Source: Nitratifractor sp. (lineage in GTDB: Bacteria; Campylobacterota; Campylobacteria; Campylobacterales; Sulfurovaceae). Taken from it: 47,724 nucleotides of DNA. Shown in pieces: positions 27,784 to 30,448 of this stretch. The position numbers and the translations under genes are program-made. The notes below the pieces were generated by a model. The model did not search any database, was not told where the DNA came from, and saw only the letters and a program-made list of their open reading frames with translations. The stretch covers positions 1 through 47,724 of the forward strand of contig WFNP01000081.1 of the NCBI GenBank assembly GCA_015488535.1. Direction: 5' to 3'. The stretch's first letter is position 1. Every line of letters starts with the position of its first letter.

Positions 27784-28065
27784 TTATAGATACCCCCACT
27801 CTTTAAATTTATTTTTTAGTTTATCATCATTTTCAAATGCTTTAAAATAAAGATATTCTGGAGCCAAATCTAATTCATCATTCCATTTTATCGTATAATC
27901 AACTTTGAAATTTTTGAATTTTTCAATATCTTGAAGCTCTTTAAATGGTTTTATTTTTCCATTAAATATAAAATCTTTTAAATCAATAACTCCCTTTTTA
28001 TGATCATTAAATTCAACAGCGATTTTATAATCATCCTGATATCTTGCATCGATTATACTTAACAT
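27784..28065 (-). CDS. DUF2442 domain-containing protein
   Basis: 93-residue protein with the DUF2442 pattern: an N-terminal strand pair (ARYQDDYKIAVEFNDHKKGVIDL), PFKELQDIEKFKNFKVDYT, and the closing WNDELDLAPEYLYFKA. DUF2442 genes commonly follow a DUF4160 gene, and the pair is suspected to act as a toxin-antitoxin-like or addiction unit, without proof of mechanism. Here the DUF4160 partner directly upstream is 5'-truncated (28082-28288), so this half may be a relic. It starts 16 bases after the partner's stop. Confidence 0.85.
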   Translation of the reverse strand: MLSIIDARYQDDYKIAVEFNDHKKGVIDLKDFIFNGKIKPFKELQDIEKFKNFKVDYTIKWNDELDLAPEYLYFKAFENDDKLKNKFKEWGYL

Positions 28066-28081
28066 TGCTTCATCCTTTAAC

Positions 28082-28288
28082 TTAAACTAAAGGCTCGACT
28101 CTCTTATATTCTCCTGTTTCTTTCATACTGTTCCAATTTTCCCATAATTCTTCTTGATGGTCTTCTGCCCACTCTACAACTAATCCAAGAACTTTTGAAG
28201 GTAACTTTCCCTCCATAACACCAAAAGTTTTAATATCGATTGAAGCTCTATAATCATTATATTCAACATGAAAATAGCGTGAATAAAA
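28082..28288 (-). pseudogene. 5'-truncated DUF4160 gene remnant
   Basis: A start-less open frame encodes FHVEYNDYRASIDIKTFG, then EGKLPSKVLGLVVEWAEDHQ and EELWENWNSMKE. These are the core and C-terminus of DUF4160. A TAG at 28289-28291 blocks the frame upstream, and only about 30 bases separate it from the MerP-like gene stop, so there is no room for the missing 25 or so N-terminal residues. No frameshift can restore it. The first in-frame ATG is internal. DUF2442 follows directly, as in intact pairs elsewhere. Confidence 0.75.
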
Positions 28289-28319
28289 CTATTTATATAT
28301 TAAAGTGATCTATTTCTCC

Positions 28320-28598
28320 TCATTTCATATCTTTTATTGATAAAATTTTTCCTCTATAACCTGCTTTTTTTACTGCTTCTAAGAGTATCGTTTCATTTGT
28401 ATCATCTTTAAATATAACCGTAGCTTTTCTTGTATTTAGCTTTACCTTAGCTTTAATAACTCCATCTGTATGTTTTAAACTTCTCTTTACCGCTACTGTG
28501 CATAACGGACAGGTCATACCTGATACCTCTATTACCGCTACTTTGTCAGCATACAGAGATATAGATATCATAAATAATAAAAATATAACTCTTTTCAT
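28320..28598 (-). CDS. Secreted MerP-like heavy-metal-associated (HMA) domain protein
   Basis: 92 residues: a signal peptide of about 17 residues (MKRVIFLLFMISISLYA) followed by one ferredoxin-like HMA domain. The metal-binding loop GMTCPLCTVAVKRSL is the MerP form of CxxC, and the closing AVKKAGYRGKI is typical. MerP proteins capture Hg(II) in the periplasm and pass it to MerT. An in-frame ATG at 28634 overlaps the upstream gene; the ATG at 28598 gives a clean signal peptide. It lies 22 bases downstream of the TusA-MerT gene, so the two most likely work together. Copper or another soft metal cannot be excluded. Confidence 0.88.
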   Translation of the reverse strand: MKRVIFLLFMISISLYADKVAVIEVSGMTCPLCTVAVKRSLKHTDGVIKAKVKLNTRKATVIFKDDTNETILLEAVKKAGYRGKILSIKDMK

Positions 28599-28620
28599 AA
28601 ATTTTAAAACCTTTTTAAAA

Positions 28621-29295
28621 TCAAAAATCATCACTGGGCAATATATATACCACCCACCACGGATAAGTTATCAGTATCACTACAAATATTGTCCCTATTG
28701 TCAAATATAGTGTATAGTTCTTACACAAACTTGTAGCACATGCAATTCTCTCTTTTCTACCTCTAAACCAGTCAAACCATAGATAGGATGTAACCGCTAC
28801 TGCACCTATTGAAAAGTAATTATGATACGGAGCAAACTTTTGTAAAAAGCTCAAAGAGCCTACACTCACTCCAAAGAGTAAAAAAAGCAAGGGACCAAGA
28901 CAGCAGGTGCTTGCCAAAACAGCTGAAATTATCCCGCCAAACATAAGAGAGTAAAATTTTCTTGCATCTTGCCTCTCTTTTGCACTGTTTACTATTTGAG
29001 ATGCTCTGTTGGCTTTGGCTGAGGCTTCAATCTTCTGCTTTGCCCTCTCCTCTTCACTTGTATCAGAATCAATCAGACACTCATACCCCTTTACAATGCT
29101 TAGAATTACATGTCTTGGGGCTATCTTTTTCTCTTCAAAATATAATCCTCTGCTATTGACAAAACGCTTGACATTTTCAATAGATGAGATAGTGTTAAGT
29201 TCTATATCCAAAATCCCTTCTTCCATACTGTCAAGTGCATCTTTGACTCTAAGCACCGGTTGAGGGCAGTCAAGGTCTTTACAGTCAAGTTTCAA
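28621..29295 (-). CDS. TusA-like sulfur carrier domain fused to a MerT-type mercury transporter
   Basis: 224 residues with two parts. Residues 1-75 are a TusA/YedF-type domain: KLDCKDLDCPQPVLRVKDAL carries the active CPxP cysteine (Cys9 in DCPQP), then GILDIELNTISSIENVKRFV. A charged helix links it to a MerT-like membrane part from about 115. There, VLASTCCLGPLLFLLFGVSV carries the paired cysteines of MerT helix 1, FAPYHNYFSIGAVAV is helix 2, CATSLC is the cytoplasmic second cysteine pair, and a last helix ends the protein. Start is TTG (29293-29295), four bases after the upstream stop. The sequence suggests a persulfide or thiol handler placed at the inner face of a Hg(II) importer. No MerA or MerR is nearby. 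Confidence 0.85.
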   Translation of the reverse strand: MKLDCKDLDCPQPVLRVKDALDSMEEGILDIELNTISSIENVKRFVNSRGLYFEEKKIAPRHVILSIVKGYECLIDSDTSEEERAKQKIEASAKANRASQIVNSAKERQDARKFYSLMFGGIISAVLASTCCLGPLLFLLFGVSVGSLSFLQKFAPYHNYFSIGAVAVTSYLWFDWFRGRKERIACATSLCKNYTLYLTIGTIFVVILITYPWWVVYILPSDDF

Positions 29296-29299
29296 TCTA

Positions 29300-30448
29300 T
29301 TATCCTATCTGTTTTTTTGTAATCTCTTGACTTATTATTTGATACTTGAATAGTTTTGGAAAATAGTAATCAAGTGGCTCATCTTCTACCTCAGCATAAG
29401 GATATCCAAGCATATTGATAGGATACTGTTCAGGTTTTGGTGAAAGGATAAAATCTCTTCCCCAGTTGAAGCCTACCCAGTTCATCTCCCAACTATGGAG
29501 ATATCTTCTATTTAACTCTTTAACTTTCGGGTTACTGTATTTGAGATTCTCTACCAGCTCCAATTTTGTAATATCGGCAGGGTCCGCAGGTATCCAACCG
29601 GCTCCAGGTATATAATACTCTGCTCTACAGTGTTGCCATGTAGATATATCAGCCATTCCCTTTTCATCTGCTTTTCCCAATGCCTTGCTGTAATGGGATA
29701 ATCCGAGTCTGATACCAAACACTTCTCTAGCAGGGATACCGGCTGCTCTCAAAAGAGCTACAAACAGTGAGCTGATATCGGTGCATTTTCCGCCAAAATA
29801 TCCACTATCCATCATCTGTCCGGCATTACCCATACCACAACCTATCACTTTTGGATCTCTGAATGTAGTCTCGGTTACCCAATTATAAATTTTTTCTACT
29901 TTTGTAAATCTGTCTGTAATACCTTTTGTCAATTCATCAGCTTTTTGTTTGACTTTGCCGTCAGTTGGAATATGTAAAGTAGGCTCTAAAAATCTTTTGA
30001 CACTATTTGGAATTGGTAAATTTTTATTAGAAGCTTCTTTGATAATTGAGAGTGGCACTGTGCGGTATTTTGTCTCTATCTCCATATCTATTTCAAGTTT
30101 TTTGGGTTTATCACTCTTTTTCCAATCAGCATAAAGTATATTTACATCATAACTGTTATCATCATTTAAATTCCACTCATCATAATTACCGTTAAATGTC
30201 AATTTTCTGACATTTTGCCAAGGAGTATTATATGGCATTGGATTCCACAATCTTGCAGGATATGCACCTTTACCTTCCGGATTTTGTAAATCAAAGCTGT
30301 ATTTGACTCTAAATCTTCTGGACTCTTTTGATATCACATCTTCACTCTCCGGTTTTAAGGCACTATTTGAGCTGGCAAATGTTACATTTGGTATCATACC
30401 AACTCCCAGTGCCAATGAAGCAGTTTTTAGAAAATCTCTTCTTTCCAA
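29300..30448 (-). CDS. Tat-exported transglutaminase-like (cysteine protease fold) protein
   Basis: 382 residues. The N-terminus MERRDFLKTASLALGVGM has a twin-arginine signal, so the protein should be exported folded. A beta-rich region fills about 45-170. The transglutaminase-like core has a Cys in GYFGGKCTDISSLFVALLRA, followed by GIPAREVFGIRLG, then the His in TWQHCRAEYYIPGAGW and the Asp in IPADPAD, making a complete Cys-His-Asp triad. Such proteins act as proteases, amidases or cross-linkers; the substrate is unknown. It is the first gene of the operon with TusA-MerT and the MerP-like gene, and is divergent from aat. Confidence 0.88.
   Translation of the reverse strand: MERRDFLKTASLALGVGMIPNVTFASSNSALKPESEDVISKESRRFRVKYSFDLQNPEGKGAYPARLWNPMPYNTPWQNVRKLTFNGNYDEWNLNDDNSYDVNILYADWKKSDKPKKLEIDMEIETKYRTVPLSIIKEASNKNLPIPNSVKRFLEPTLHIPTDGKVKQKADELTKGITDRFTKVEKIYNWVTETTFRDPKVIGCGMGNAGQMMDSGYFGGKCTDISSLFVALLRAAGIPAREVFGIRLGLSHYSKALGKADEKGMADISTWQHCRAEYYIPGAGWIPADPADITKLELVENLKYSNPKVKELNRRYLHSWEMNWVGFNWGRDFILSPKPEQYPINMLGYPYAEVEDEPLDYYFPKLFKYQIISQEITKKQIG

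Follow-up and report, generated by a model that had tools for sequence, protein, structure and literature searches.

A Campylobacterota gene cassette of mercury-transport-like proteins and an exported transglutaminase-like protein, linked to selenium use by genomic association

The locus studied here raises the question of what a MerT-type membrane protein does when it is fused to a TusA domain, encoded between an exported transglutaminase-like protein and a secreted MerP-like protein, in a genome with no MerA hit above the curated cut-off. The window, a stretch of 47,724 nucleotides from Nitratifractor sp. (WFNP01000081.1), contains the three genes on its minus strand in the order TG, TusA-MerT, HMA, as given by the list of open reading frames and by Pfam, and in a profile search the Transglut_core, TusA, MerT and HMA domains each score above their Pfam cut-off. 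The gene of TG, the exported transglutaminase-like protein, spans 29300-30448 (-) and encodes 382 aa from a TTG start (Transglut_core, 8e-21). The TusA-MerT fusion gene, 28621-29295 (-), also has a TTG start and encodes 224 aa in a single frame (TusA, 5e-13; MerT, 2e-11), and the HMA gene, 28320-28598 (-), encodes a secreted MerP/CopZ-like protein of 92 aa with the motif GMTCPLCT (PF00403, 4e-12). Four bases separate TG from TusA-MerT and 22 bases separate TusA-MerT from HMA, the latter counted from an internal ATG at 28598 taken as the HMA start. An earlier note on this DNA had described one unbroken frame with a TusA CPxP motif and a MerT domain with both cysteine pairs, next to a Tat-signal transglutaminase and a secreted HMA protein with a CxxC; the open reading frames, Pfam and the alignment bear out this description, and its spacings are right given the ATG at 28598. 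Just downstream of the cassette, a remnant behind stop codons at 28080-28290 (-), which we take to be of the DUF4160 type, adjoins an ORF at 27784-28065 (-), presumably DUF2442-like, and the two are possibly a decayed pair.

The TusA part covers residues 2-66 of the fusion, 29098-29292 (-), and scores 49.2 bits to PF01206 (cut-off 28.6), with C10 as the cysteine of CPxP, a motif also seen in the TusA rows of the fusion alignment. The MerT part covers residues 117-217, 28645-28947 (-), as delimited by PF02411 (44.7 bits, cut-off 32.9), the alignment, charge and hydropathy, and the helices of the predicted model. It shows both cysteine pairs, C131-C132 in the first membrane helix and C186/C191 in a positively charged loop, and the four residues are invariant in an alignment of 14 relatives. 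The charge pattern predicts a cytoplasmic location for both the C186/C191 loop and the TusA domain at the N-terminus. This predicted topology agrees with the scheme accepted for MerT, where Cys24/25 hand the ion to Cys76/82 at the cytoplasmic face (PMC5715351). The predicted model of the fusion has a low pTM (0.42) and gives no domain contact. The HMA protein contains CPLC, and GMxCPxC is invariant in 14 relatives. No selenocysteine was seen in MerT or HMA, for which downstream readings with TGA as U gave the intact cysteine forms. A stop or frameshift between the TusA and MerT parts was looked for, and the fusion is unbroken in genomes of three genera (g1, g4 and g7), which rules out a frameshift or assembly artefact as the origin of TusA-MerT. 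The apparent TusA/MerT stops in two genera come from extension of the alignment past the gene, and the only genuine frameshift in MerT belongs to one genome (G131; L033 8801-9496, the same locus as L080), with TG and HMA intact, as a result of either transporter decay or an assembly error.

The best match of the fused TusA is the selenium_YedF model (NCBIfam TIGR03527), to which it scores 54 bits vs 13.5 for TusA itself. The scores range from 54 to 62 bits over models, with 61.5 bits to the YedF model for the fused TusA of locus L152, and identity to YedF N-domains reaches 63% for some of the fused domains. The domain is under the YedF family cut-off (54 vs 110 bits) because the DsrE half is absent. 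Related genomes contain a second MerT fusion of 300-340 aa, composed of MerT, a Cys-rich linker and a C-terminal rhodanese, at L026 802-1821 (-), L027 1453-2439 (+) and L029 904-1815 (-), whose MerT score is just under the Pfam cut-off.

TG scores 74.8 bits to PF01841, above the gathering score of 23 for the superfamily domain. Its N-terminus shows RRDFLK, recognised by eye as a Tat-type motif, and the formal Tat models give scores below threshold. The RR motif is kept by most TG relatives, and those of L055, L062 and L031 have other signal-like N-termini; from these sequences, being exported seems more important than using the Tat pathway. The triad is C222, H273 and an Asp (D289 or D292), all four candidates being invariant in 12 relatives, and there are two additional conserved cysteines, C204 and C274. 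These key residues, C204 and C274 included, are mostly kept even in remote relatives, and TG is conserved better than any other cassette member. The closest PDB fold to its predicted model (pLDDT 76.5) is 3isr, a putative cysteine protease, followed by the TgpA periplasmic domain. TG shares with these transglutaminase-like cysteine proteases the fold and the C-H-D type active site, but differs in the additional C204 and C274 and in its selenium gene context, and a PDB sequence search with TG gave no match at E 0.01. Two loci show unusual TG genes: L161 8419-9405 (G284), in a Helicobacteraceae-like genome where SelD is still present, encodes a TG relative without C204, C222 and C274, and L163 7649-10116 (G426) has two TG genes in tandem, upstream of its MerT and HMA.

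Among 175 genomes of the family of the window organism, TG (E below 1e-20) was found in 23, coinciding with close MerT relatives save in contig-edge cases, and MerT and HMA are directly behind TG in the family loci. In genus g9 TusA is not part of the cassette, and MerT alone comes after TG. When 84,980 species genomes were scanned with the TG alignment, 80 loci came up: 57 belong to Campylobacterota and 23 are more remote. Of the Campylobacterota loci, 46 extend 1.5 kb or more downstream; 42 of these have MerT and/or HMA behind TG, 21 have TusA there, and many cassettes lack TusA. No MerT or HMA gene was found beside TG in the 23 loci outside Campylobacterota. TG, MerT and HMA are a conserved adjacent unit in Campylobacterota, so the grouping first noticed in the window recurs widely in this phylum, and the transglutaminase is conserved with its two neighbours.

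The distribution of this unit follows that of selenium use. In a phylum sample of 298 high-quality Campylobacterota genomes, SelD is present in all 93 genomes with TG vs 223 of the 298 overall (Fisher p 3e-15); counted by genus, the 22 genera with TG are all within the 39 SelD genera of 58 (p 9e-6), and in the family SelD is found in 20 of the 23 TG genomes vs 35 of the 152 without TG (p 4e-9), p-values which treat genomes as independent and are inflated by shared ancestry. The three TG genomes of the family without SelD are drafts, and all of them have SelA. Within the genus of the window organism, G047 (99% complete) lacks TG, MerT, SelD and SelA, and G037 (88% complete) lacks TG and SelD and keeps a SelA fragment. 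The window genome itself contains selA and selD, the latter showing an in-frame TGA, both on contigs other than that of the cassette. Four genomes (G107, G112, G131 and G296) show the cassette and SelD and no SelA, and they may use selenium via tRNA selenouridine only. An accessory of selenium use should show TG only with SelD, which is the case in Campylobacterota (93/93) and is not the case for remote TG relatives: nine Nitrosospira/Nitrosovibrio genomes with a relative about 35% identical and without SelD are the main counter-example. In loci L126-L144 (Nitrosospira, Nitrosovibrio and relatives) the TG relative is in a fixed housekeeping neighbourhood, with YjgA-like and PmbA-like genes (named by eye), and SelD was found in some Nitrosomonadaceae drafts carrying the TG relative. 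YedE and TG occur together in 44 of the 298 genomes, and both are missing, at the thresholds applied, from 99 of the 223 genomes with SelD. YedE and the cassette therefore do not exclude one another, and the cassette is not present in all SelD genomes and does not simply replace YedE.

Gene position is evidence separate from the co-occurrence p-values. Among the 48 genomes with coordinates for both genes, selD is within 10 kb of TG in 27, with 0.4 expected: 27 of 27 in five families and none of 21 in two others. In the Campylobacter-type and Sulfurospirillum-type families the two genes are far apart. The recurring TG neighbours, assigned by family models, are selA, selB, selD and mnmH, and also yedF and dsrE. 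The most complete arrangement is that of L152, from a complete Nautiliaceae-type genome, which shows selA-selB-yedF-TG-TusA::MerT-HMA-dsrE-selD on one strand, with genes mostly overlapping or a few bases apart, each confirmed by family models, and with the DsrE protein encoded separately from the fusion. Arcobacter-type loci show selD divergent beside TG-MerT-HMA, and L106, from a Sulfurimonas draft, contains TG-yedF-dsrE-selD with no MerT behind TG. Outside the phylum, TG adjoins selD without MerT in three Proteobacteria loci (L137, L139 and L145). The link of the cassette with selenium is strong and is one of genomic association. Both this tie to selD and selenium gene clusters and the YedF-likeness of the TusA domain escaped the earlier note, which had rightly offered import of another thiophilic ion as an alternative to mercury. 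Its suggestions that the fused TusA quenches an imported metal and that TG acts on the envelope find no support.

On balance, the cassette is probably a selenium-acquisition module, a supply system made from Mer-type parts. The periplasmic HMA protein would capture selenium on the CPLC thiols, one possible form being a selenotrisulfide derived from selenite, and would pass it to the cysteine pair of MerT helix 1. From there it would go to C186/C191 on the cytoplasmic side and then to the fused YedF-type TusA, whose CPxP cysteine would carry it as a protein-bound perselenide for supply to SelD. TG, exported, would be a cysteine hydrolase or acyltransferase that liberates or prepares the source of selenium on the outer side of the membrane; this is the weakest step. 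Transglutaminase-fold enzymes act on gamma-glutamyl amides, and therefore a selenium-bearing peptide is a natural first candidate for the TG substrate. The full version, an importer from mercury-transport parts in which HMA, MerT, fused TusA and SelD form a thiol relay that keeps selenium protein-bound, with no free selenide, while TG frees organic selenium, is proposed tentatively. Published work provides its background: the characterised MerP to MerT thiol relay imports (PMC5715351); delivery proteins have been argued to be needed, since free selenide would be too toxic at the levels that SelD requires (PMC8538045); the YeeE thiosulfate permease cannot do without YeeD, of the TusA family (PMC11073785); and YedF is tied to SelD by comparative genomics, FdhU/YedF affecting the selenium-dependent formate dehydrogenase of C. 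jejuni (PMC5322559). A literature search found no description of a TG/TusA-MerT/HMA cassette; a transglutaminase-like enzyme is listed once, without comment, in a STRING table on Slackia YedF (PMC5322559).

The genomic links would be identical if the cassette were an export system or safety valve that removes or buffers excess reactive selenium, with TusA/YedF holding the surplus, and such a role has also been floated for YedE (PMC5322559). Export is nevertheless unlikely, as characterised MerT/MerP systems import (PMC5715351), and a periplasmic binding protein together with an exported enzyme suits capture better.

A guard function, in which the cassette captures Hg(II) or another soft metal poisonous to selenols, would fit the soft-metal binding of the MerT and HMA families and the known MerT and MerP-like selenoproteins, mostly read as metal proteins (PMC13188914). 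MerA, however, is above cut-off in just 3 of 35 cassette genomes and never adjoins the cassette, Hg(II) import without MerA would endanger the selenium pathway, and a YedF-type carrier joined to MerT suits a chalcogen better, all of which makes a metal guard improbable.

Another reading, with sulfane sulfur as the cargo of the module and a secondary link to selenium, takes its appeal from the TusA and DsrE domains, mostly sulfur carriers, from the separate MerT-rhodanese fusion of related genomes, and from hosts that are mostly related to sulfur-metabolising Campylobacterota. It would not predict the absence of TG from all SelD-less genomes of the 298-genome sample, nor a cassette inside the selA-selD run of L152, and is improbable.

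Classical Hg(II) uptake or resistance is the most obvious reading of a MerT with a MerP-like protein, given the Pfam MerT match, the four MerT cysteines and a match to the MerP model under its cut-off. The earlier note had reported MerA as absent, and in the window genome no hit passes the curated cut-off: the best one reaches 334 bits vs 454, and it looks like a lipoamide-dehydrogenase relative without the C-terminal cysteine pair. As MerA is missing here and rare in the other cassette genomes, it is ruled out as a cassette partner. No MerR was noticed among the ORFs listed around the cassette, no mer genes are adjacent, and the Mer equivalog scores are far under the cut-off (MerT 44.2 of 150 bits, MerP 55.3 of 92.55 bits). 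The view of the earlier note that classical mercury detoxification was unlikely thus holds on MerA and on the Mer cut-offs, and Hg(II) uptake or resistance is very improbable as the role of the cassette. That TG modifies the cell envelope with no tie to its neighbours, a variant of the envelope role given to it in the earlier note, is hardly credible: the nearest folds, cysteine proteases and the TgpA periplasmic domain, and the remote TGs among housekeeping genes in Nitrosospira speak for it, but TG is the best conserved of the set, adjoins selD in other phyla without MerT, and is found in no genome without SelD in the 298-genome sample.

The supply module preferred here shares features with several known systems. 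With MerT/MerP of the mer operon (PF02411, TIGR02052) it has in common a three-helix MerT with a helix-1 cysteine pair and a cytoplasmic cysteine pair, and an HMA protein which, like MerP, is secreted and has a CxxC; it differs in that no MerA adjoins it and its scores are below the Mer cut-offs, and it adds an N-terminal TusA, an exported TG and a selenium context. By the defining features tested the cassette is no mer operon, and its mechanics may be similar. With YedE/YedF (FdhT/FdhU; TIGR04112, TIGR03527) it shares a membrane protein, a TusA-family protein and the SelD link, but its membrane part is MerT-like, with no match to the YedE model (TIGR04112), the fusion lacks the DsrE half, and HMA and TG are extra; YedE is encoded elsewhere in some cassette genomes. 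With YeeE/YeeD (TsuA/TsuB) thiosulfate uptake it shares a permease paired with a TusA-family protein, the two being one polypeptide in some bacteria (PMC11073785), while that system has an unrelated permease fold and order, thiosulfate as substrate, no HMA or TG and no selenium link. The MerT/CopZ fusion-like selenoprotein (NF045683) and the UxxU metal-binding (seleno)protein (NF041115) show weak similarity to the MerT and HMA parts, which in the cassette are cysteine forms, separate, and far under those cut-offs.

No high-affinity transport system for selenium had been identified, according to a 2022 review (PMC9312934). The cassette is a concrete, testable candidate for such a system: its genes form a defined set with conserved residues, and there are hosts whose genomes are complete. 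If the proposal is true, MerT/MerP-like proteins in organisms without MerA would be read differently, and some proteins annotated as mercuric transport proteins would be selenium proteins of a new kind of transport system. In that case a large family of exported transglutaminase-like proteins, so far uncharacterised, would also gain its first role.
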